Shown here: positions 8,205-34,292 of the stretch, in pieces
Numbering within the stretch: position 1 is the stretch's first letter
Layout of the letters: each line of letters starts with the position of its first letter
NCBI GenBank assembly: GCA_013152585.1
Contig: JAADGC010000168.1
Coordinates: 1 to 34,463, forward strand
DNA: 34,463 nucleotides
Source: Chloroflexota bacterium
GTDB lineage: Bacteria; Chloroflexota; Anaerolineae; J102
Direction: 5' to 3'
The notes under the pieces: generated by a model
Seen by the model: only the letters and a program-made list of their open reading frames with translations
The model's database searches: none
What the model was told of the DNA's origin: nothing
Position numbers and translations under genes: made by a program

Positions 8205-11200
8205 TCAGGGCCGGGTGATATGAAAGACACTGCCGGCGCCGCGGCCGAAGACTTCGGGGAAGTACATCATCTCGGCGCGCGGGGGCAGGACGTTGAAGTC
8301 CCCGGCGATGCTGGCCCGCAATTGATAGCGGAAGGTGTAGGTGCCGGGGGCCAGCGAGGTGGCGAACAGGGCGACTTTGTCATCTTTGAGTTCGAAACTG
8401 GTGGGATACCACCACCAACGCCACCACGCCGGGGCTGTCTCGCCTACGGTGTCGAGAGAGGGGCCGCTGTAACGCTGGCTGGTGGTGGCCAGGCTGCTGT
8501 CGATGGGCTCGGCACCGGCGGGGATGGGATCTTCGAGCAGGAAGTAGTGCATCTGACTGGGGATGATGAGGGTGAGCTCGACGTCGATGATGTCGCCGAC
8601 ATGGGCGGCGGTGATGTTGGTCCCGGTCTCGTCGTTGGCCAGGAAGTAGCGGCGGGCTACGGTGATGCCGCGGCTGAGGGGCTGCAGATCGGGCACGGGT
8701 AGGTAGACGCGCAGATCGGCGCTGTAATAAAGCTGCCCCGGCCCGGCGCCACGGTCGATCTGTAACAGATTGAGCTGATCGGCCAGGAGATCGGCGATGG
8801 CGATCCGCAGGGTGTACGGGGTCTGGACGTCGGCGGGGCTGATGTGGCCGTTGGCCAGGGGCTGGCCATTGAAGAGGGCGTCCCAATCATAATCGGCTTG
8901 CAGCTCACCCGTGGCGGCCATCCAGTCGGTGAGGGCGATCAGTGTCCAGGCGGTCTCGTGCGTGCTTTGCCAATGGCCGTCGGTGCGGGCGTGCATCAGC
9001 CAGCGTACCACATTGGGGCCCAGGGGATGGTCGGGTTGGATGGCAACGAGGGCGGCCAGAATCACGGCCGTGCTGCGAGTGTCGGTGTTCATGGTCCACC
9101 AATCGCTGTTGGCCTCTTCCCAGTGGGCGCCGGTGGCGCTGACAATGGCCTGCCCCAGCAGGTTGTCGAGCACATCCTGCGCCTGCGAGGCGGTGGCAGC
9201 CACATCGCTCTGCGCCTGCAGGGTGAGGGCGAGATAGGCCTGGGCATAGAGGGCGAGCCGCTGACGGGCCCCGACCAGCAGTTGGGCGTCGGCCAGGGGG
9301 CGGGCACCGTTGTTGCTGCGGCTGACCTCATCGAGCACGTAGACGATGAAGGCCTGGCGATTGAGTTCATAGTCTTGCAAATCATCGGGGTTGCGCAATT
9401 GCTGGCGCAGGAAGTCGGCCCCGCGCTGTATGACGCCGCTATCGACGGTGTAACCGATGCCCTGGGCGGCGGCGAGGCCAAAGAGAACGTAGGCGCTGGT
9501 GTAGAGATTGCTTTCTTCCTGGGCGAACCAGCCCCAGCCGCCATCCGGGTTTTGGCGGGTGAGCAGACGCTGCAAACCGACGTTGACCTGGGTGGCCAAC
9601 CCAGCCGCCAAGTCCGGCCGGCTCAGGCCCAGGGCGCCGAGGGCGCGGGTGGTGAGGATGTTTGGCAGGAAGCGGCTGACGGTCTGCTCGGTGCACTCGT
9701 ATTCAAAATGCTTCAGATAACGCAGCCCTTCGGTCATGCCCGCGGCCAACGAGGGTTCCAGCCGCAGGGTGAATTCGCCCTGGGTGGGATCGTAGCGGTC
9801 GGGCAGGGAGATGGCCTCGTAGCGGGTTTCGTCGGCGCTGACAACACCGGCCGTGGCCACGGTTTCGGGGCTGCTATAACGCCGTACCGGCAGACTGAGT
9901 TCGATGGCGTCGTTCACGTCATTGGCCCGGGCGACTATCCTCACCCCCACCGTCTGGCGCACGAGGCTGCTGCTGGGATCGATGTCGTTGACCTCCACTG
10001 GTAGATCGACGCGGCTGAGTTCGCCGGCGGGGATGTCCAGTTGGAAGGTAGGGTCATCCTGGGTGCTGAGGCCGTCAAGTTCGATGCTGAGGGCGACGCG
10101 TTGATCCTGGCCGGTGTTGTTTTGCACGATGGCGCCCAGCAGGAAGTGATCGCCATGCACCACAAAACGCGGCAGCACGGGTCGCACCAGCAGGGGCTTG
10201 GTGACCAGCAGATCGTAGGTGGCTTCGCCCACGATGGTGTTACGGGTGACGCCAATGGCGCGCATCTGCCAGGTGGTGAGATTATCGGGCAGCGTCACCT
10301 GCACGGTGGCCTCGCCCTGGCTATTGGTCTCTACATCGGCCTGCCAGAAGGCGATGTCACGAAAGTCGGAGCGCACGTCGATATCTGCCAGCCTGGCAAA
10401 GCCACCCCCGCCGCCACCTTTGGCGCCTTTGCTCTGAGCTTCGTCGATGCGGTTGAGAGAAGCGACGAGGGAGACGCCGGTTTGCACGCCCAGGCCGCGT
10501 TGCGACCAGAAGGTTTGGGCGATGCCGGGGGTTTCGTCGGGGCGCAGGCTGAGCAAGGCTTTATCGACCAGGGCCAACGATATCTGCGAGGATACGGGGC
10601 GGCCGCTGTAGTCGGTGGCGCGGATGGTGTAGCTGACAGTGTCGCCGGGGCGGGCGGGGTTGGGCTCGGCGCTGAGGCTGAGATTGAGCAGGTGCTGACT
10701 GACGTCGACGTTGATTTGCACCAGCCCCAGCTTGAAGCCGGGTGGTTCGTCGGCGGTGGGCGGCTGCACTAACAGCACCGAGACGAAGACATCGGGGGCG
10801 TAAGTGCCGAGAATGGGGACTTCGAGGGTCTCGCTGTTGCTTTGCAAGATGACCAGACGATGGCTGATGATGTTGCGTTGTTCGATGGTGACGAGGGCTG
10901 TGGTGGGGCCGGCGAAGGGGCTGGGGATGAGGATTTGGGCTGTATCCCCCACCTGATACGTATCCCGATCGGCGATCAGTTCGATGCGGTCGTCATTGCT
11001 GATGCGCCAGGGTGCGTAGGATGTGCCGGAGATCCAGGCGAAGGCGGCGCTACGTTTGCTGTTGCCCAGGGCATCGCCGGCCGTGGTGCGGATGAGATAT
11101 TGGCCCGGCTGTTCCGGCGTCCAGGCCAGGGTGGCGGTGCCGTCGGCACCGGTGGTGACGGTGGTTGTAACGACCGGCGTTTCGTCGACGGTGCTGGTGT

Positions 11201-14168
11201 AGCGCATGCGGCCATTGTCCCCGCGTTGGCGCACTGTGCGCCAGTCGATCAGGCTGATGTTGACCGCCATCGTCTGCGCGGCCAGCGGCGCCTTGCTGAG
11301 GGCGTCCACGGCAATGAAGTGCGCGATCTGCTCGGTTTGGGTCATGCCCACGTAGCGGTCGGGGCGCACGCCGGGATAGATGCCGGCGGCATGAATGATG
11401 AGGGCGGTGGAGCCGGAGATCTCCTGATCGTTGACATCGGTAACGCTGAATTCGATGGTGCGTACGGCGGATTCGTGCAGGGGCGTGGCCTCGGCGCTAA
11501 GCTCGGTGGGCACGTCGAAGCTGAACTGGCCCTGATCATCGGTTTGACCCTCACCGCTGCCGATTTCCTGGCGATAGGGCTGGCTGAAGGGTCGGAAAAA
11601 GGCGTCGGGCTGGAAGTCGGTGAAGGACCAGGGATGGCCGTCGTCATAGGGGAAAGTGTAGGGAGCGCTGAAGAGGGTCCAACGCGCTTGAGCGCGTTTG
11701 ACCGGGCCGCCACTAAAATAACTGGCCTGCACGGCGGCGGTGGCGGTTTCGCCGGCCAGCACCTCAGCGGGAGCGACGGAAACGCTCAACTCGTATTCAG
11801 GCTTGCGGAATGCTGCCACCAGGAAGCCGACATAGGCAGTGCTTTGATCCGCAATCGTCAGTTGGATGCTGTAAGAGCCCAGCTCGGTTTCACTGCTGAG
11901 CGTGAAGTCGGCAGCAACCGCCCCAAAGGCATCGGCCGTGAGCGTCTTTTTTTCCACCACATCCCCCTGCGGGTTGCGGAGAATGAAGGTGGCGGCAAGG
12001 GATGGCGGTAAGGCGTAGCCGGCGGGGTCGTCGCGGCGGATGATGGCGCGGGCATGCACCGTGTCTCCGGCGCTATAGAGCGGTCGTTCGGTAAGCAAAT
12101 GCACGCGATAATCCTGGGTGTAATACTCGCCCGGCAGATCGAAATTCCACACAGAGATGCCTTGATCCCAACGCGTGCTCGTCCATCCGGGATCATCTTC
12201 TGTGCCCACAAAGGCGATGGTTTCCTGCCAGGGCGAATCGCTGGCAGAAATGCCTGTTTGATACACGCCCTCGGCATTGGTCGTGCCCCCCGAAGCGATG
12301 ATTTCGCCCGCATGATAAATCGTCACCGGCTGTCCTGCCACCGGTTGCCCACTTTGCAGATCGGTGACCCAAACCAAGGCGTTTGTAACGCCTTTTTTGA
12401 TCACCACGTTGTAGCGGCTGATCACGAGTAAGGCGCGGGGTGTGGTATCGTATTCGCCGTAGCTCACCTGTGGCGAACGCGCCGTAATGAAGTAGAAACC
12501 CGGCCCCAGCGGCGCTCCGCTGGCATCTGTCAGAGCAGCGCGGGTCTGGCTGACTTGATTCAGCGAAAGGTCTTGGTGCAGGATCCAACTGCGCACGAGC
12601 TGTGATTTGGGAGGGCGATACGTACGCCAGGCCGAATAATCCTCATCCGGGCGGTTCGTGGCGAATTGCTGCGCCGGCAGCCGATATAGAGCGATATCGA
12701 TATCCGTGATATTGACATGATTAAAACGAATGGCGGGCTCGTTGTAGGCGTCGAATAAACCGATGGTGCCCGGGGTGAGCATACTGAGGAAGGGCGGGAG
12801 ATCGCCGGTGCGGAAGTGGATGGTAGTGGGGTCGGAAATGACATGGCCGTAGGGGTCGCTGATGCCTCCGGCCAGCGTCACTGTGTATGCGGTGCGCGGT
12901 TGCCGGGGGAAATAGATGCTGAGCGATTGATCGTAACTACTGTACCAACTGTAGACCTCTGTGGCGCTGATGGGAGGACTAACATCGAATTGCAGGGTTT
13001 CTTCCAGCACCGGCGCTGTGAAGCGAATGAGTACCGGCCCGTTGACCTCGACGTTATCGACGCCATCCTTGGGATCTGTAAAGAGAATGGCGGGAAGAGG
13101 GGCGATACGGAACAGTTGTGTGCGTGACTTTGGCAGAGGCGCTCCGGAAATGCCTTGGGCCTGAGTCGAGATGGACACCAGCACTTGGGCGCCCATCGGC
13201 AAGGGGGCTTCGGGCATGAATACGAGCTGCTGCCCGTTCTCGTGCCAACTGATCTCCCCTGTCACCACTTCGTCCCCTGCCACCACCTGCACGGCGCCTG
13301 CCGACCTTGCGGGGGCCATTTCTTGGCTGAAGGTGATCGTAATGGGGGTGTTGGGGCTGATAAGATCGCCAACAGGCGCGATGCCGGTCACCACGGGCAC
13401 GGCTGTGCGAAACTGGAAGACAGTGGGCTGTTCCAGGGGGCTGCCGCTCAAGTCGTTGAGATCGGCGATTGTGGCTGTGTACGTGATGCCGCCCGCCAAT
13501 GGGCCGTCCGGCTGGAACAGATAGATGCTGGGGTTCAGCCAGCGACCCGAGCCGCTGACTACCGGTTCCAGGTTCAGCGGCTGCGGCAGGCTGGGGTCAT
13601 CCCCGGCAATACCCAGCGGCACCACGGGCCGGTTGAAGGCAATGCTGATGGGGGCGTCGATGGCGATGCCCTCGGCGCCATCGCTGGGCGTGGTGGCCGT
13701 CACCTGCAGATAGCCCTGGGTTTGAATATGAAAACGCAGGGGCCCGGTTTGCAGCCCCTGGCTGGCGGCGCTGAGTTGCAGCAAGTAGCGCTTGCCGCGC
13801 TGATATGCGGCAGGCGTATACCGCACCGTGTTCCCCGATACCCGCAGCTTGCCGGGCAGCTCTGGCTCGAACGCCAGCGACAGGCTGTCGGCATCCACAG
13901 GCTGATCGAAAATAATCTCGATCGGCTGTTGCGGTGACAGTTCTTCGCCCCGGGCCGGATGCATGGCTACCACGCGGGGAGGCAGCGGCGGCAATGTCGG
14001 CACCACAGCCACAGCAACCACCGTGGGCTCTGGCGTAGGGAGCGGGGTGGCTGTGGGGGCAATGGGGGACGCTGTGGGGGTGGGCGCCTGTTTGCGACCA
14101 CAGGCCGACAGCAGCAAGCTGAACACAATCAACAAAATCAGGCCTGGCAAGAAAAAACGTCTGTTCAT
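8205..14168 (-). CDS. Lipoprotein alpha-2-macroglobulin with intact thioester motif
   Basis: A 1987-aa surface protein. The start is ATG 14168 (GGGGAG just upstream), giving a signal peptide with lipobox LSAC and lipidated Cys23, then a Pro/Thr-rich linker. Several Ig-like (Big_5) repeats follow, e.g. around SPQQPIEIIFDQPVD and DGAEGIAIDAPISIAFNRP, then macroglobulin domains. A Gly-rich, bait-like stretch (SKGAKGGGGGGFARLA) lies around residue 1250. The thioester motif CTEQ is at 1492-1495 within FEYECTEQTVSRFLPN, inside the alpha/alpha thioester domain (NPDGGWGWFAQEE). Bacterial alpha-2-macroglobulins are protease traps guarding the cell envelope. In proteobacteria the gene often pairs with pbpC; none is here. 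The longer frame from 14249 would mask the signal peptide, so it was rejected. Confidence 0.95.
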   Translation of the reverse strand: MNRRFFLPGLILLIVFSLLLSACGRKQAPTPTASPIAPTATPLPTPEPTVVAVAVVPTLPPLPPRVVAMHPARGEELSPQQPIEIIFDQPVDADSLSLAFEPELPGKLRVSGNTVRYTPAAYQRGKRYLLQLSAASQGLQTGPLRFHIQTQGYLQVTATTPSDGAEGIAIDAPISIAFNRPVVPLGIAGDDPSLPQPLNLEPVVSGSGRWLNPSIYLFQPDGPLAGGITYTATIADLNDLSGSPLEQPTVFQFRTAVPVVTGIAPVGDLISPNTPITITFSQEMAPARSAGAVQVVAGDEVVTGEISWHENGQQLVFMPEAPLPMGAQVLVSISTQAQGISGAPLPKSRTQLFRIAPLPAILFTDPKDGVDNVEVNGPVLIRFTAPVLEETLQFDVSPPISATEVYSWYSSYDQSLSIYFPRQPRTAYTVTLAGGISDPYGHVISDPTTIHFRTGDLPPFLSMLTPGTIGLFDAYNEPAIRFNHVNITDIDIALYRLPAQQFATNRPDEDYSAWRTYRPPKSQLVRSWILHQDLSLNQVSQTRAALTDASGAPLGPGFYFITARSPQVSYGEYDTTPRALLVISRYNVVIKKGVTNALVWVTDLQSGQPVAGQPVTIYHAGEIIASGGTTNAEGVYQTGISASDSPWQETIAFVGTEDDPGWTSTRWDQGISVWNFDLPGEYYTQDYRVHLLTERPLYSAGDTVHARAIIRRDDPAGYALPPSLAATFILRNPQGDVVEKKTLTADAFGAVAADFTLSSETELGSYSIQLTIADQSTAYVGFLVAAFRKPEYELSVSVAPAEVLAGETATAAVQASYFSGGPVKRAQARWTLFSAPYTFPYDDGHPWSFTDFQPDAFFRPFSQPYRQEIGSGEGQTDDQGQFSFDVPTELSAEATPLHESAVRTIEFSVTDVNDQEISGSTALIIHAAGIYPGVRPDRYVGMTQTEQIAHFIAVDALSKAPLAAQTMAVNISLIDWRTVRQRGDNGRMRYTSTVDETPVVTTTVTTGADGTATLAWTPEQPGQYLIRTTAGDALGNSKRSAAFAWISGTSYAPWRISNDDRIELIADRDTYQVGDTAQILIPSPFAGPTTALVTIEQRNIISHRLVILQSNSETLEVPILGTYAPDVFVSVLLVQPPTADEPPGFKLGLVQINVDVSQHLLNLSLSAEPNPARPGDTVSYTIRATDYSGRPVSSQISLALVDKALLSLRPDETPGIAQTFWSQRGLGVQTGVSLVASLNRIDEAQSKGAKGGGGGGFARLADIDVRSDFRDIAFWQADVETNSQGEATVQVTLPDNLTTWQMRAIGVTRNTIVGEATYDLLVTKPLLVRPVLPRFVVHGDHFLLGAIVQNNTGQDQRVALSIELDGLSTQDDPTFQLDIPAGELSRVDLPVEVNDIDPSSSLVRQTVGVRIVARANDVNDAIELSLPVRRYSSPETVATAGVVSADETRYEAISLPDRYDPTQGEFTLRLEPSLAAGMTEGLRYLKHFEYECTEQTVSRFLPNILTTRALGALGLSRPDLAAGLATQVNVGLQRLLTRQNPDGGWGWFAQEESNLYTSAYVLFGLAAAQGIGYTVDSGVIQRGADFLRQQLRNPDDLQDYELNRQAFIVYVLDEVSRSNNGARPLADAQLLVGARQRLALYAQAYLALTLQAQSDVAATASQAQDVLDNLLGQAIVSATGAHWEEANSDWWTMNTDTRSTAVILAALVAIQPDHPLGPNVVRWLMHARTDGHWQSTHETAWTLIALTDWMAATGELQADYDWDALFNGQPLANGHISPADVQTPYTLRIAIADLLADQLNLLQIDRGAGPGQLYYSADLRVYLPVPDLQPLSRGITVARRYFLANDETGTNITAAHVGDIIDVELTLIIPSQMHYFLLEDPIPAGAEPIDSSLATTSQRYSGPSLDTVGETAPAWWRWWWYPTSFELKDDKVALFATSLAPGTYTFRYQLRASIAGDFNVLPPRAEMMYFPEVFGRGAGSVFHITRP

Positions 14169-14494
14169 GGTAACTCCCCGTGCAAGCTGGTGAAGGCAGA
14201 GCGCATCAAGCGTATCTGGTTCGGGCGAACCTGATACCCATTGTGACATATTTTTCCATAATAATCCAGTCGATTTGTCATCGCTTAGCCTACGAATACA
14301 GGGTCATTGGCAAACGCTGAACCCGGCACCTACCTTCCGTACTATCCCCCACCTTTTTTCTTCCGTTCGGCTCACGGAACCATTTGTCTCAAGCCTCAAA
14401 ATGCGGTACAGTATTTTTTGACCCTCTCTTCCCGTCTCGGCGACTTTGCGTTGAAAAACCTCCGCCCCTCTGCCTCTCGACGTTAAAAATCGAC
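14169..14494. other. Divergent intergenic region
   Basis: This gap separates the minus-strand alpha-2-macroglobulin gene from the plus-strand methyltransferase and should hold both promoters. A minus-strand TATTAT near 14256-14261 is a possible -10, but no well-spaced -35 supports it. Around 14432-14450 there is a GCGACTTTGCG stretch of the dispersed CTTTGCG repeat family. A reading frame extending the methyltransferase back to TTG 14384 lacks family similarity. Confidence 0.5.
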
Positions 14495-27828: not shown

Positions 27829-29061
27829 TTAGCGGCGGAACAGTGCTACGGCTATCAGCCCGGCAGTTTGTGGCCCGCTATCGATGGGGGTTATTTCATC
27901 CAGAATGTAATGCCCCTGTTGCCAGGCCGGTAGATCGCGCAGCAGCGTGTTGGGATGAGGCGCCACGTAGGCCACGCGCTTGACGCCCATGCGGGCCAGA
28001 TTTTGGGCCAGGCGATGCCCCATGCCGGCGGCAGGCGGCGAGACCACGGCAATATCGGCATAGCCCTTGTGTAGCCGCAGTACCTGGGGCGGAGGGCCTT
28101 CGGACAGAGTCACATTATCGAGATGCTGGCAATTGAAGGCGCAATCTTCCATCGCTATGGCGTCTTCCTCGATGCCGATCATCACGCTCACCTGCTCGGC
28201 AAAGGCCAGCGTCATCAGGCCAACCCCGCAATAGACGTCGACCATCACCTGTCCGGGAGCGGGCTCCAGGTATGCCGCCACTTGCTCCAGCACGGCTTCG
28301 GTCGCGGCAATGTGAGCCGGGCGGGGTGAGCCGGCGCTGAGACGGTATTCGTGTCCGCGGATCAGTTCATAGATCCAGGGCTCGCCGATGAGAGGCTGGA
28401 TCGTGCCCCGGCTTCGTTGTAAGGCAATGGCAACGGGCAAATCGGTTTCGATTTCGGGCACTTCGTCTCTACGCGTGCGCAGTACCACCAGGCTTTGGCC
28501 GCTGCTGATGCCTACGCTCAGATCCACCGACTGCAAACCATCCCATTCCAGGTTGAACTGGGAATAGAGGGCTGCCAGCGCCGGATGTTGCAGCGGACAG
28601 TGGTCTATGGCGTGCATTTGCTGGCTGTGCCTTTGCGGCAGTCCCAGCGCCCCCGCGCCCGTTGCATAATAAACCCCCTGACTCTGGTAAGCCCAGGGCT
28701 GTGCCACGGCGGCGGTGGGGCGTATGCGCTCGGGGAAGAAGCCCTGCACCTGGGCCATCTGGTCTTGCAACAGGCGTTGTTTGTACGTCATCTGGGCCCT
28801 GACATTGGCGTGTTGCCACTGGCAGCCCCCACAGCGACCCGGCCCAAAATGAGGACAAGTGGGGGTGATGCGTTCGGGGCTGGGGCGCAGGATTTCTTGC
28901 AGTTCGGTGCGGGCCCAGCGTTTGTGTTCTTCGATCAAGGTGACGCGCACGCGTTCGTTGGGCAGGGCGTATGGCACAAAAAGGAGGCGATGTTCGTGGC
29001 GGGCGATGGCGTCGCCACCATAGGCCATGGCGGTTGTTTCAAGTTCTAATTCGGTGACCAT
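27829..29061 (-). CDS. TrmA/RumA-like protein lacking the catalytic residues
   Basis: A 410-aa protein with the architecture of RNA m5U methyltransferases: an N-terminal TRAM domain (about 1-60), a 4Fe-4S cysteine set (Cys69, Cys77, Cys80 in CPHFGPGRCGGC, and probably Cys155), and a C-terminal SAM-binding domain with DVYCGVGLMTLAFAEQ (275-290). The active site is lost: the DPPRxG motif is SPPAAG (341-346), the nucleophilic Cys of SCNP is replaced in APHP (367-370), and the C-terminal HxE base motif reads GLI (401-403). The protein is full length with no frameshift, so it seems a maintained pseudo-enzyme rather than a decaying gene. ATG 29061 is preferred to the TTG at 29076. Confidence 0.88.
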   Translation of the reverse strand: MVTELELETTAMAYGGDAIARHEHRLLFVPYALPNERVRVTLIEEHKRWARTELQEILRPSPERITPTCPHFGPGRCGGCQWQHANVRAQMTYKQRLLQDQMAQVQGFFPERIRPTAAVAQPWAYQSQGVYYATGAGALGLPQRHSQQMHAIDHCPLQHPALAALYSQFNLEWDGLQSVDLSVGISSGQSLVVLRTRRDEVPEIETDLPVAIALQRSRGTIQPLIGEPWIYELIRGHEYRLSAGSPRPAHIAATEAVLEQVAAYLEPAPGQVMVDVYCGVGLMTLAFAEQVSVMIGIEEDAIAMEDCAFNCQHLDNVTLSEGPPPQVLRLHKGYADIAVVSPPAAGMGHRLAQNLARMGVKRVAYVAPHPNTLLRDLPAWQQGHYILDEITPIDSGPQTAGLIAVALFRR

Positions 29062-29137
29062 GCAACAGGTATCCAAAATGGGGGGTGGGGTACAACAACA
29101 ATAGGTAGCCGCATTATAGCGTCAAACCGCATCTCAT

Positions 29138-29260: not shown

Positions 29261-30610
29261 TTAGACCAGACCTTGGTCGAGCATGGCGTTGGCCACTTTG
29301 ACGAAGCCAGCAGCGTTGGCGCCCATCAGGTAGTTGCCGGGATCGCCGTAGCGTTCGGCCGCTTCCACGCTGGCCTGATGGATGCTCTTCATGATGTTCT
29401 GCAGCCGACCATCGACTTCTTCGCGACTCCAGCTCAGACGCAGGCTGTTCTGGCTCATCTCCAGGCCCGAAACAGCCACGCCACCGGCATTGGCCGCCTT
29501 GGCCGGACCATACAGGATTTTGTTGTCGATGTAGAGGTGGATGGCATCGAGCGTGGAGGGCATGTTGGCGCCTTCGCTGATCACATAAACCCCATTGTGG
29601 AGCAGGTTCTGGGCGTCTTTGCTATTGATCTCGTTCTGGGTGGCGCTGGGGAAGGCGCATTCGGCCTTGTGATTCCACAAGGGGTTGGTGTCCAGGGTGG
29701 GATCCACGGGGGTGTAGACGGCGTTGGGGTATTTTGCGGCATATTCGAGAATGCGGCCGCGACGGACGTTCTTCAGTTCCATGACAAAGGCCAATTTTTC
29801 GCGGTCAATGCCTTCTTCGTCGTAGATGTAGCCGTTCGAGTCGGACAGGGTGACAGCTTTGGCGCCAAGGTCCAGCAGTTTTTCGACCGTGTACTGGGCG
29901 ACATTCCCGGAACCCGAAACCAGGCAGGTCTTGCCGGCCAGGGTTTGGTTGCGGGTGGCCAGCATTTCGGCAGCAAAATAAACCGCGCCGTAGCCGGTGG
30001 CTTCCGGGCGAATGAGGCTTCCGCCCCATCCCAGACCTTTCCCGGTGAGGATGCCGGCGAATTCGTTGCGCAGGCGTTTGTACATACCAAAGAGGAAGCC
30101 GATTTCGCGGGCACCAACGCCAATGTCGCCGGCGGGCACGTCGGTATTGGGGCCGATATGGCGGCACAGTTCCATCATAAAGCTCTGGCAGAAACGCATG
30201 ACTTCGTTATCCGATTTGCCTTTGGGGTCGAAATCGGAACCGCCTTTACCGCCACCCATGGGCAGCGTGGTCAGGGCATTCTTGAAGACCTGCTCGAAAG
30301 CCAGGAATTTGAGGATGCTGAGGTTGACGGAGGAATGAAAACGCAGGCCGCCTTTGTACGGGCCAATGGCGCTGTTCATTTGAATGCGATAACCACGGTT
30401 GATCTGGATTTCGCCAGCATCATCCATCCACGGCACGCGGAACATAATGACGCGTTCGGGTTCAACCAGACGGTCGATAATTCTAGCCTGACGATATTCG
30501 GGATGACGATCCAGCACAGGCACGATAGACTCAAAAACTTCCCGAACGGCCTGGTGAAATTCTTTTTCACCGGGATCGCGGGCGATGACGCGTTCGACAA
30601 AAGGTAACAT
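29261..30610 (-). CDS. gdhA: NADP-type glutamate dehydrogenase
   Basis: A 449-aa hexameric-class glutamate dehydrogenase that makes glutamate from 2-oxoglutarate and ammonium (reversible) in the cytosol. Catalytic and substrate residues are visible in GPYKGGLRFH (Lys86), PMGGGKGGSDFDPKGKS (Lys122 and the Lys/Asp following) and DVPAGDIGVGAREIGFLFG. The Rossmann nucleotide motif is SGSGNVAQYTVEKLLDLGA, with VTLSDSNG after it. Length and sequence fit the NADP-dependent GdhA group; the cofactor is inferred from family. AAGGAG lies 9 bases before ATG 30610. A terminator-shaped hairpin at 30666-30710 in its leader suggests attenuation. Confidence 0.97.
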   Translation of the reverse strand: MLPFVERVIARDPGEKEFHQAVREVFESIVPVLDRHPEYRQARIIDRLVEPERVIMFRVPWMDDAGEIQINRGYRIQMNSAIGPYKGGLRFHSSVNLSILKFLAFEQVFKNALTTLPMGGGKGGSDFDPKGKSDNEVMRFCQSFMMELCRHIGPNTDVPAGDIGVGAREIGFLFGMYKRLRNEFAGILTGKGLGWGGSLIRPEATGYGAVYFAAEMLATRNQTLAGKTCLVSGSGNVAQYTVEKLLDLGAKAVTLSDSNGYIYDEEGIDREKLAFVMELKNVRRGRILEYAAKYPNAVYTPVDPTLDTNPLWNHKAECAFPSATQNEINSKDAQNLLHNGVYVISEGANMPSTLDAIHLYIDNKILYGPAKAANAGGVAVSGLEMSQNSLRLSWSREEVDGRLQNIMKSIHQASVEAAERYGDPGNYLMGANAAGFVKVANAMLDQGLV

Positions 30611-30658
30611 GTTACAAATTCTCCTTTGAATTTGCCACTTGAGGCAAGGTTGAAATAG

Positions 30659-30715
30659 AAAAAACCGCCTGCCCCCGGAATGACTCGTTAATACAAGCCT
30701 GGGGGAGGCGTTTTT
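30659..30715. promoter_or_regulatory. Terminator-shaped hairpin in the gdhA leader
   Basis: CGCCT-G-CCCCC (30666-30676) pairs with GGGGG-AGGCG (30701-30710): 10 bp with one bulged G, and a 24-nt loop. It is flanked by A6 (30659-30664) on one side and T5 (30711-30715) on the other, so it looks like an intrinsic terminator on both strands. On the minus strand it lies only about 50 nt before the gdhA start, with no good promoter between, so it may attenuate gdhA. A small TTGCC/GGCAA hairpin (30632-30647) sits between it and the Shine-Dalgarno. Confidence 0.7.
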
Positions 30716-31182
30716 GCGCAATATCAAAAACGGTCTCATTCCTGTTAGCAGGTGATGGTTCTTGTATAGAAGTTACGGATATCCCCTCCCTCGTTTTTTT
30801 GCCTTGTTGAAGGCGGGTAAACGAACCCCAAGCAGGAAGAATGTCCAGCATGATGGAACGAATGAAGCAAGACGTCATTGTTTCGCAAAAAGAGAGCACC
30901 CGCAAAAGTGGATTAAGGTCTTAAGATTAGGTGCCACTCATTGCTAGAATGCTAACACAGGCACGTCTGATTGGCTAATTTTCTATCGCACTTTGGTGCA
31001 ACTTTTATTCAGTGGCCAAGTGAGGCATAATGAAATTTGATTTGCCTACCTGTCAATTCTTTTCCCCCTTATCCCTAAGAATCGTCGCCAAATGAGTTTC
31101 CGTTTTTAAGCTCCGTGAGCTGCTCAGAAGTGCTGCCAGCACCGAAGTATCGGCGCCACCTCCCGGAGATCGATTCTCAATA
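30716..31182. other. Non-coding divergent region between gdhA and the PEP-synthase-like gene
   Basis: There is no gene. The region should hold the gdhA promoter (minus strand), but I see no well-spaced consensus pair. Small inverted repeats occur, e.g. GCCTTGTTGAAGGC near 30801-30814, GCACTTTGGTGC near 30989-31000 and AGCTCCGTGAGCT near 31109-31121. A GAATGC/GCCACTC pair near 30933-30953 looks like a weak CIRCE but does not fit its spacing. Confidence 0.5.
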
Positions 31183-31325: not shown

Positions 31326-34292
31326 ATGTCTCCAAGCGCTCTCCGTTTTCCCCAAATTCCCGACGCGACCTTTAAGGTGTTCCATGAACTGATGCCGCAT
31401 AAGGTGCGCGATGTCTTGCTGGTCTCTACCCCGTACGATGCCTGGATGTTGGAAGAAGATGGGCGCCTGTCGGAACGCATTGTCAACGAGTATCGGGGGC
31501 TGAACCTCAGCCGTCCCCCGCGGCTGACGTGGGTGGCATCGGCCGAAAAAGCCCTGGCGATGTTAGCACAGCGGCCCTACGATATGGTGATTACCATGCC
31601 GCGTCTGGCCGATATGGATGCTTACATGCTGGGCACAGAAATTAAGAAGATAAAAGCAGACATGCCGGTGATCGTACTCTCGCACGGTCTGGCGCCACTG
31701 GATATTGATTTTTCCACCTCGCAACGTCCGCGAGGCATCGATCGCCACTTCGTATGGTTCGGCAATGCCGACCTGCTGCTGGCGCTGGTTAAAAACACGG
31801 AAGACCAATGGAACGTCGAGAACGACACCGAGGCCGCCCGCGTGCGCGTTATTCTTTTTGTAGAAAACTCCCCCATTCATCTATCGATTCTGTTGCCGCT
31901 CTTGTACAAAGAATTGGTGAGTCAAACCCGTGCTGTTTTGGAAGGCACGTTGAACGAGGAACACCGTTTGCTGACGATGCGCGCCCGGCCCAAGATCTTG
32001 TTGGCCGAGAATTATGAACGGGCCTGGCAGCTTTTCACCCAATTCGAGCCTTATGTGCTGGGGGTGATCTCGGATGTGGAATTTTCGCGCAAGGGGGTGC
32101 TTGATAAGCGTGCGGGCATAAAACTATTGCAGGCTGTTCGCAAGCAGCGTTTCGATATCCCCTTGTTGCTCACCAGCTCCAATTCGCGCAACGTGGTGTC
32201 GGCACAACGCTTACAGGCTGCGTTTGTGGATAAAACCTCACCCTCGCTGCGCGAAGACCTGCACAGCTTTTTTAAGTATAGTCTGGCCTTTGGTGATTTC
32301 ATCTTTCGCGTGCCCGATGGCGCCGAAGTGGGTCGGGCCTGGGATTTGCGTTCATTGGAGCGGGCACTGCGCACCGTGCCTGATAAAAGCATTCTCTATC
32401 ATGGCAGCCGTAACGATTTTTCGCGCTGGCTGTTTACGCGTACCGAAACCGTGCTGGCCACCTACATGCGTGATATTGTCATCGCTGACTACGTCGAGGT
32501 CAGCGCTTTGCGGCATCATATGATCACCGTGCTTCATGCCCACCGTCGTGAACGTCAGCGGGGGATTGTGGCCGACTTCGATGCCCGCGATATCGATCCG
32601 GTCATCCGTTTTTACAAGTTGGGTAAAGGATCGCTGGGCGGCAAAGGTCGGGGGTTGGCCTTCCTGAGCTGGTTGCTGCGTCAACGCCAGGATCTACGGC
32701 AGAAATATGGTGCCGTCCGCTTGTTCGTTCCCCGCACGCTCGTCATTTCCACCGAGATATTTGAAGACTTTGTGGCTCAAAACCACCTGCACTATCTGGC
32801 AGAAGAGGATCTGCCCGATCAGGAAATCGCCAGCCGGTTTATCCACGGCGTCTTTCCCAAAGGCGTCACCAGCGACCTGCGTGCCTATTTGGCTCAGATA
32901 CGCTATCCCCTGGCGGTGCGTTCCTCCAGTCTGCTGGAAGACGCCCAGTTTCGGGCGTATGCGGGACTATATCGCACTTACATGCTCCCCAACGAACATA
33001 CCAGTCTCGAACGCCGGCTGCATCACCTGCTACATGCCATCAGACTGGTTTATGCTTCCACCTATTTTCAAAGCCCCAAGGCCTTTTCTCAGCGGGTGGG
33101 ACGTCGTACCGAAGAAGAACAGATGGCGGTCATCCTCCAGCAGTTGATGGGCGAACAGCATGGCGACTATTTCTATCCTGTCCTGTCTGGTGTTGCTCAA
33201 TCTTATAATTATTATCCCTTCGCCCAGGTCAAGCCCGAAGACGGACTGGCGACCATCGCCGTGGGCCTGGGCCGGGCCGTGGTAGAAGGAGAACAGACAC
33301 TGCGATTTTCGCCCAGGCACCCCCAGGTGCTCCCCCAGCGTTCTTCTGTCGACCTCATTCTCGAAAACGCCCAGCGCTATTTTTATGCCCTGCGTATGGG
33401 CATCGATGCCCATGATCTCGACATCAGTGATCGCGAAAACTTGATCCGGCGCCAGATTGTCGATGCCGGCGACGAAGCCCCCATCCAGCGTGTCATCAGC
33501 ACCTACATTCCGGACGAACATCGCATTCGTGATACCAGCGCCGCTACCGGCTATCCGGTTGTGACCTTCGCCTCCATCCTCAAATACAAGCAATTTCCCC
33601 TGGCCGAGCTGCTGACCGATATTTTGGCCATGGGCTCCGAAAGTATGGGGGCGCCGGTCGAAATTGAATTCTCGGTCAACATGCGCCAGAACCCAAAATG
33701 CAAACCCGACTTCGCATTTCTGCAAATGCGGCCCATGACTGCCCGCGCCGAACTGGGCGTTGTCGATATCACCTATGAAGACATCCAGAAGGCCATCTGC
33801 TATGCCACCAAAGCTTTGGGAAATGGCATCAACAACGAGATAAGCGATATCGTATACGTGAAACCCGAGGCCTTTCGGCGCCAGCAAAGCCAAAGCGTTG
33901 CCGCCGAAATCAGCCATTTCAACGCCCTGCTGCTCCAGCAAAAGCGCAAATACATCCTCATTGGTCCCGGCCGCTGGGGCACAGCCGATCGCTGGTTGGG
34001 CATCCCCGTGCGCTGGCACGATATTTCGGGCGTGGGAGCGGTGATCGAAACACCCCTCGACGACCTCAATGTCGAACCCTCCCATGGTTCACACTTCTTT
34101 CACAACCTCATCACCCTGGGCATCAGCTATATCACAGTCAGCACCAAAGCTCCCGATCATTTGCAATGGGAATGGCTGACAGCGCAACCGATTCACAGCG
34201 AAACCCCCCACGTCGCTCACGTGCAACTACCCCGTCCCCTCACCCTCAAGGTGGATGGCCGCACATCGACCAGTGTGATCGTGGTTCCTTAA
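31326..34292 (+). CDS. PEP-synthase-like protein with two receiver-like domains
   Basis: A 988-aa protein. Two response-regulator-like domains open it: one about 28-150, where the acidic pocket and phospho-acceptor look replaced (LLVSTPYD, VITMPRL), and one about 172-300 that retains an Asp in GVISDVEF. From about 430 comes the PEP/pyruvate-binding ATP-grasp region of PEP synthase/PPDK: KLGKGSLGGKGRGLAFL and YPLAVRSSSLLEDAQFRAYAGLYRTY (about 528-553), then VEIEFSVN...FLQMRPM. The phosphohistidine swivel motif and the C-terminal PEP-binding barrel are missing; instead a conserved YILIGPGRWGTADRWLGIPVRW module (about 878-900) closes it. It is thus probably not a complete PEP synthase but a signalling or kinase-type relative. 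No clear Shine-Dalgarno precedes ATG 31326. Confidence 0.85.
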   Translation: MSPSALRFPQIPDATFKVFHELMPHKVRDVLLVSTPYDAWMLEEDGRLSERIVNEYRGLNLSRPPRLTWVASAEKALAMLAQRPYDMVITMPRLADMDAYMLGTEIKKIKADMPVIVLSHGLAPLDIDFSTSQRPRGIDRHFVWFGNADLLLALVKNTEDQWNVENDTEAARVRVILFVENSPIHLSILLPLLYKELVSQTRAVLEGTLNEEHRLLTMRARPKILLAENYERAWQLFTQFEPYVLGVISDVEFSRKGVLDKRAGIKLLQAVRKQRFDIPLLLTSSNSRNVVSAQRLQAAFVDKTSPSLREDLHSFFKYSLAFGDFIFRVPDGAEVGRAWDLRSLERALRTVPDKSILYHGSRNDFSRWLFTRTETVLATYMRDIVIADYVEVSALRHHMITVLHAHRRERQRGIVADFDARDIDPVIRFYKLGKGSLGGKGRGLAFLSWLLRQRQDLRQKYGAVRLFVPRTLVISTEIFEDFVAQNHLHYLAEEDLPDQEIASRFIHGVFPKGVTSDLRAYLAQIRYPLAVRSSSLLEDAQFRAYAGLYRTYMLPNEHTSLERRLHHLLHAIRLVYASTYFQSPKAFSQRVGRRTEEEQMAVILQQLMGEQHGDYFYPVLSGVAQSYNYYPFAQVKPEDGLATIAVGLGRAVVEGEQTLRFSPRHPQVLPQRSSVDLILENAQRYFYALRMGIDAHDLDISDRENLIRRQIVDAGDEAPIQRVISTYIPDEHRIRDTSAATGYPVVTFASILKYKQFPLAELLTDILAMGSESMGAPVEIEFSVNMRQNPKCKPDFAFLQMRPMTARAELGVVDITYEDIQKAICYATKALGNGINNEISDIVYVKPEAFRRQQSQSVAAEISHFNALLLQQKRKYILIGPGRWGTADRWLGIPVRWHDISGVGAVIETPLDDLNVEPSHGSHFFHNLITLGISYITVSTKAPDHLQWEWLTAQPIHSETPHVAHVQLPRPLTLKVDGRTSTSVIVVP

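Follow-up and report, generated by a model that had tools for sequence, protein, structure and literature searches.

An RlmD (RumA) orthologue stripped of its active site and conserved in a family of Anaerolineae

Described relatives and identity of the gene

Mammalian mitochondria already provide a case of a dead m5U methyltransferase homologue retained for RNA binding; its recurrence in a bacterial RlmD is the surprise here. Passages of PMC7237155 describe bovine and rat mitochondrial TRMT2B as m5U54 methyltransferase homologues predicted to be dead (Cys to Tyr in Bovinae), report that m5U54 is absent from bovine mt-tRNAs, and carry the authors' suggestion of a kept RNA-binding or chaperone role. 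TrmFO-like proteins of mollicutes have both catalytic Cys changed to Tyr, and the rlmD cases there are apparent pseudogenes (passages of PMC7226160). A tRNA folding role independent of catalysis is described for E. coli TrmA and TruB and yeast Trm2 (review PMC11301382, in excerpt). In RlmCD the base is held by F281, Q283 and D381, with E443 acting as general base (parts of PMC6235398 and PMC5614603); mutant F281A loses most activity, F281A and D381A bind SAM as the wild type does, and E443Q serves as inactive control (parts of PMC5614603).

The gene described here lies in the window, a stretch of 34,463 nucleotides from a draft genome of 3.8 Mb (96% complete) of the class Anaerolineae, phylum Chloroflexota. 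Its product resembles RlmD/RumA (E. coli; 1uwv, 2bh2) and RlmCD in the whole fold and SAM motif I, and E. coli RumA in the Fe-S cysteines, but is without the Cys nucleophile, the D and R of DPPR, HxE and FFQ that these enzymes possess. As in bovine and rat TRMT2B, in the passages cited, the catalytic Cys is lost while the fold and the remaining sequence are conserved; TRMT2B is, however, TrmA-type, mitochondrial and changed in a single residue, whereas the window protein is of bacterial RlmD type, is altered across the whole pocket and belongs to a pattern with several origins in one class. Unlike the dead window protein, TrmA and TruB of E. coli and Trm2 of yeast are, in the excerpted review, active enzymes on tRNA. 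The mollicute TrmFO-like proteins, in the passages cited, are likewise m5U enzyme kin without a nucleophile, but they belong to a flavin/folate family and are paralogues, whereas the window protein is the sole copy. Among open-licence PMC papers, no description was found of an RlmD loss fixed in a bacterial family, of its several-fold origin in one class, or of a lost pocket combined with kept Fe-S and SAM parts.

The frame (27829-29061, minus strand) is intact and has 410 codons from an ATG; an alternative in-frame TTG upstream (29074-29076, minus strand) would give 415 aa, and this longer form, P0001, supplies the numbering used below (ATG numbering is P0001 minus 5). The protein scored 187.5 bits against TIGR00479 (rumA; 23S rRNA m5U1939 methyltransferase; NCBIfam), just over the cut-off of 183.55, 18.3 against PF05958 (Pfam), under the cut-off of 23, and only 19.5 bits against TIGR02143 (TrmA, tRNA m5U54 methyltransferase), for which the cut-off is 334.65. 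Of the solved structures, E. coli RumA (1uwv) was nearest at E=5e-32, followed by S. pneumoniae RlmCD at E=1.8e-19. The window protein is, by its sequence, RlmD-like and not TrmA-like, and of the label 'TrmA/RumA-like' given in a preliminary description of this DNA only the RumA half holds. Profile-based annotation labels these dead proteins active RlmD, the TIGR00479 cut-off being passed in 14 of 20 genomes of the family, including the Cys-bearing genome G009 discussed below.

When the protein was aligned to E. coli RumA (1uwv), SPPAAG, APHP and GLI matched the DPARAG, SCNP and HLE segments, respectively. All features that follow are on the minus strand. APHP (27952-27963; residues 372-375, 367-370 in ATG numbering) replaces SC(N/D)P and turns the nucleophilic Cys into Pro (P373), SPPAAG (28024-28041; residues 346-351, 341-346 in ATG numbering) replaces DPPRxG, and GLI (27853-27861; residues 406-408, 401-403 in ATG numbering) replaces HxE, with the general base Glu changed to Ile (I408). 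The preliminary description, which had reported a full-length protein altered in these three motifs, is confirmed to this extent, and a further change absent from it was found: PRP (28318-28326; residues 251-253) stands in place of FFQ, whose F and Q bind the flipped uracil in this enzyme family. On the catalytic side of the comparison with RlmD the window protein thus has P373, I408, S346, P251 and P253, and all of the base-holding and general-base residues of RlmCD (F281, Q283, D381, E443) are replaced. With its flipped-uracil pocket dismantled and no catalytic residue left, this protein is not expected to form m5U.

The four cysteines of the predicted Fe-S site, which are not universal in the wider family of enzymes, are present: C74, C82 and C85 in the loop CPHFGPGRCGGC (28822-28857; all three Cys in 16 of 16 dead family members) and C160 (28597-28599). 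SAM motif I, DVYCGVG, is kept (28219-28239; residues 280-286), as is E303 (28168-28170), which the alignment makes the putative counterpart of the ribose-binding acid E333 of RlmCD. The claim that Fe-S cysteines and SAM fold were retained is therefore borne out, but the CX7CX2C spacing, which had been taken to be unusually long, proved ordinary and is ruled out as a special feature: it occurs in 48 of 116 Cys-bearing homologues of the class, against 52 of 116 with CX5CX2C.

An AlphaFold2 model built from the window protein and 40 relatives reached a pLDDT of 94.5 and a pTM of 0.92. It superposed on the RumA-RNA-SAH complex (2bh2) with Z 44.0 and 2.3 A over 394 residues, and on the RlmCD-RNA complex with Z 44.1 and 1.8 A over 408 residues; the predicted architecture is OB/TRAM, central and Rossmann methyltransferase domains. 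The N-terminal OB/TRAM-type beta barrel (28885-29052; residues 9-64) was assigned from the secondary structure of the model and from the superposition on RumA and RlmCD. The Pfam TRAM profile gave no match at E<=1 on the N-terminal part, so the earlier statement that TRAM is retained fails by profile; it is upheld by structure because the model superposes on RumA across residues 3-410.

Fixation in the window's family

The family (f1) was represented by 20 genomes; three of the window's relatives among them have genes identical to genes in the Chloroflexota MAG records JAADII01, JAGFJG01 (labelled Caldilineales) and JALWDV01 (Anaerolineae). With P0001 as query, 17 had one orthologue each, and TIGR00479 likewise gave one RlmD in 17 and none in G001, G008 and G013; its other weak matches were confined to the SAM region of different methyltransferases. 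Completeness is 79-85% in the three genomes that lack a match, and the number of missing genes expected from incompleteness, summed over the family genomes, is 2.1 of 20, against 3 observed. The catalytic Cys was absent from 16 of the 17 orthologues, the exception being that of G009. Alignment of orthologues, proposed at the outset as the way to see whether the changes are fixed, thus answers in the affirmative, and judged from this alignment the loss of the RlmD active site in the family is more than chance. A local mutation or sequencing error is ruled out, 16 genomes sharing the loss. Orthologues with an intact Cys, which the preliminary description had named as a refutation, are limited in the family to the one in G009.

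The position of the Cys is occupied by H in ten of the Cys-less members, Q and S in two each, and P and D in one each. The former Asp at 346 is S or T in 16 of 16, with the PP mostly kept; residue 349 is A in six, E in four, D in four, N in one and G in one; residue 408, the former Glu, is T, I, A or S; and FFQ has become RRP or similar. Canonical F251, F252, Q253, D346, R349, S372, F401, H406 and E408 occur in 0 of the 16 dead members. All 16 genes are full-length frames without internal stops, and SAM motif I is kept in 15-16 of 16.

No second RlmD gene was detected in the 16 dead family genomes by P0001 and TIGR00479 searches, and PF05958 gave no match in the window's own genome. With at most one RlmD per genome over the 20 genomes, a second canonical copy taking over is ruled out in the family. 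A second TrmFO/RlmFO as replacement is ruled out as well, TrmFO being single in each genome where it was found, inside and outside the family. TrmFO is found in 19 of the 20 genomes, as it is in most other families, and presumably supplies tRNA m5U54 in the window's family.

Among 116 Cys-bearing proteins of the class, 76 sites are conserved at >=90%; the family has kept 49 of these and lost 27. The lost sites are concentrated from residue 247 on, in the methyltransferase half (20 of 42, versus 7 of 34 in the N-terminal half; Fisher p=0.017). The family also has 36 fixed sites of its own whose residues canonical proteins rarely show (among them W178, R200, C316, P329, H354-R355 and N359), which looks like new constraint on the sequence rather than relaxation. 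The net charge of the family is -3.4, compared with a canonical mean of -18.7; in other dead lineages the charge is inconsistent, and because it is clearly raised in the window's family only, a common trend towards more basic proteins with a firmer grip on RNA is ruled out.

In the 12 closest family pairs, all inside genus g6, dN/dS was 0.11-0.29, and for the dead methyltransferase domain it was 0.09-0.22 in the six closest pairs (calculated with our own NG86 script). Close pairs of dead proteins are under purifying selection. The proposal that this is a conserved pseudoenzyme gains support from these values together with the loss of the Cys in 16 of 17 orthologues, the single RlmD seen in each of those 16 genomes and the retention of the Fe-S cysteines in 16 of 16 and of SAM motif I in 15-16 of 16. 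The window copy itself, at pS 0.58-0.77 to all others, is too distant for the selection test. Only G011 rivals it in divergence: of the sites at which all 15 other members agree, the window copy differs at 16 of 112 and G011 at 21 of 117, compared with 0-4 for each of the remaining 14. The window's genus has one other genome, G001 (85% complete), in which P0001 had no match; given this and the divergence, decay of the window's own copy is conceivable from the sequences.

The exception, G009, carries a canonical Cys-bearing RlmD (contig C62, 16928-18244, locus L055; also locus L310, 8902-10248). In this genome no pseudoenzyme gene was found. The rlmD gene groups with family f20 with support 100 in both trees (FastTree and IQ-TREE) and is not adjacent to a glutamate dehydrogenase gene. 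About 4 kb from it, on the same contig, is a gene for a 1,212-aa protein that is 69-78% identical to full or near-full family copies (78% to the counterpart in G011) and 59-64% identical to those of f20; contamination is thereby ruled out as the source of the G009 gene. Because the contig is the family's own while the gene groups with f20, rlmD was probably acquired. The simplest reading, for one draft genome, is that a canonical gene was gained and the pseudoenzyme lost, which makes G009 a likely natural replacement of a pseudoenzyme by an active enzyme; if this is right, the two are partly interchangeable.

Recurrent loss across Anaerolineae

The homologue set comprised 236 distinct sequences, 174 of them from genomes of the class, which represent 53 families. 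The Cys column was readable in 171 class sequences, of which 118 had the Cys and 53, from nine families, did not; f19 and f35 were deliberately oversampled after first sight, so the 53 of 171 should not be taken as a prevalence. The initial sample, which took one or two genomes from each family other than f1, had 5 Cys-less loci among 35. The Cys-less sequences were distributed as follows: 16 of 17 in f1, 14 of 14 in f35, 12 of 12 in f19, 3 of 3 in f28, 3 of 6 in f31, 2 of 6 in f16, 1 of 3 in f25, 1 of 2 in f46 and 1 of 1 in f38.

Trees were made without the motif columns, using 196 of the 236 sequences, with 8 partial rows omitted. The fewest changes of Cys state were 8 (FastTree, 196 rows), 8 (IQ-TREE mixture model, 91 rows) and 7 (27 rows), and these are read as losses, not gains, because the outgroups are Cys-bearing. 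Constraining the 13 Cys-less rows of the 27-row set to a single clade cost 476 log units, and one common origin of the Cys-less proteins is rejected with a p-AU of 2.6e-53, a value that is indicative only, the constrained group having been named after the tree was seen. As a control, 53 loci were examined from other classes of the phylum (a subset of the matches was taken): all 52 that were readable at the Cys keep it, and Asp and Gln are present in 53 of 53.

The kept parts recur across the dead lineages. In 51 full Cys-less proteins of the class, an acid is found at 280 in 50, G284 in 50, G286 in all 51 and an acid at 303 in 50, and the Fe-S set is complete in 49 of 52 readable Cys-less proteins. 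The other classes have the reverse pattern, with invariant catalytic residues and a full Fe-S set in 46 of 53 loci, some of the seven incomplete ones being possible misalignments. Four of these loci (L362, L364, L368 and L376) are canonical Cys-bearing RlmD without the Fe-S cysteines, a mirror image of the dead class members. In f35, three Cys-less proteins (L296, L297 and L305) have lost the Fe-S cysteines too, and the family may for this reason show a later stage of divergence. Early-looking stages were seen in f31, where L235, L132 and L224 are affected and the other members are canonical; in L235 the Cys is replaced by Ser and the His of HxE by Tyr, with Gln, Asp and Glu still there, as if the Cys had gone early.

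Of the 53 genomes of the class that carry a Cys-less gene, 51 had a single match to P0001. The exceptions were G099, with two non-overlapping pieces, and G122 (f46), which has both a Cys-less and a Cys-bearing RlmD (L137/L280 and L308), unlike the single-copy dead lineages.

Directly upstream of the window gene, on the same strand, lies a glutamate dehydrogenase gene (29261-30739, minus strand; Pfam PF00208/PF02812). The same place directly downstream of glutamate dehydrogenase is occupied in G003, G004 and G011 of the family, in G046 (dead, f28) and in the canonical G038 and G041, that is, in 7 of 17 stretches compared including the window; the other stretches have other neighbours. Because this neighbour is common to both, the dead and living proteins are taken as orthologues at one ancestral locus, and paralogy is ruled out. 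Loss of the target base is ruled out where the 23S rRNA was seen: an exact U1939 context was recovered from five of the 20 family genomes and from G046; G000, the window's own genome, gave no match.

Readings of the conserved protein

The window gene is an intact, conserved, catalytically stripped RlmD orthologue. It is probably, in our reading, a conserved pseudoenzyme derived from RlmD (RumA) that serves as an rRNA-binding folding or assembly factor, with SAM perhaps still bound. The protein would still bind the RNA on which its ancestor acted, the stretch of 23S rRNA near U1939 or a precursor of it, through its OB, Fe-S and central domains, as the kept parts suggest, and the bound RNA would be helped to fold or assemble without being methylated, by analogy with TrmA and TruB on tRNA and with the role suggested for dead TRMT2B; the unchanged U1939 context fits such binding. 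SAM or SAH might stay bound as a structural ligand or a signal, which is possible because the F281A and D381A mutants of RlmCD still bind SAM like the wild type. Retention of GxG and the acid can also reflect stability of the fold instead of SAM binding.

Because the active site was lost several times in Anaerolineae, selection there seems to keep the protein and not the methyl mark. As a wider and more tentative proposal, RlmD in Anaerolineae may be a SAM-liganded Fe-S rRNA chaperone whose active site has been discarded in at least seven lineages, m5U1939 methylation being a removable side activity. Whether rRNA-modifying enzymes matter for the mark or for RNA handling is an old question, and here the catalytic part has been removed repeatedly while the protein was kept, in a family whose 23S rRNA still has the target nucleotide. 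The family offers ready-made catalytically dead proteins for chaperone tests, and raises the question of why a 4Fe-4S cluster should outlive the neighbouring chemistry.

An unlikely alternative is that the protein is an RNA-bound sensor, in which the former pocket, occupied by SAM or SAH, and the Fe-S cluster would inform the ribosome or RNA of methylation potential or redox state. In its favour, 50-51 of 51 Cys-less proteins keep SAM motif I and the ribose acid, and 49 of 52 keep the Fe-S set, which some Cys-bearing enzymes of other classes lack, but there is no conserved signalling partner, the neighbourhood varies within the family, and the stretch aligned to the adenine contact of RlmCD is a family-specific GPP.

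It is quite improbable that the protein is a methyltransferase re-tooled for another atom or RNA, in which S/T-PP has become motif IV. The invariable S or T at 346, the mostly kept PP, the kept SAM motif and the 36 newly fixed sites would suit such an enzyme. Amino (N4-C/N6-A) methyltransferases have a motif IV of the form (S/T/D/N)PP(aromatic), yet residue 349 is never aromatic in the 16 dead members; moreover, the nucleophile position is variable, residue 408 takes any of four identities, no new conserved catalytic set emerges, and the other dead lineages are altered differently.

Ordinary decay, in which the methyl mark is dispensable and the gene slowly erodes, seems very unlikely to account for the family. 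Repeated losses in one class, the loss of the Fe-S cysteines as well in 3 of 52 proteins (f35) and a window copy more diverged than most are what erosion would leave. Against it stand full-length frames without stops in all 16 genomes, low dN/dS in genus g6 that extends to the dead domain, 49 old and 36 new fixed sites, and a count of missing genes of 3 where 2.1 of 20 are expected. That m5U is still made, with other residues as nucleophile and base, is highly improbable: ten of the 16 members have His where the Cys was, and a Cys-to-Tyr mollicute TrmFO-like protein has been discussed as possibly active (passages of PMC7226160), but the window has Pro there, F, Q, D and E are lost too, and in RlmCD the F281A change alone costs most of the activity and E443Q is an inactive control (parts of PMC5614603).

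Two further frames in the window were noted. On the minus strand, 8205-14249 encodes a 2014-aa bacterial alpha-2-macroglobulin with Big_5 domains (Pfam), and on the plus strand a 988-aa frame (31326-34292) joins a weak response-regulator match, DUF5752 and a PPDK ATP-binding domain (Pfam), an unusual combination.
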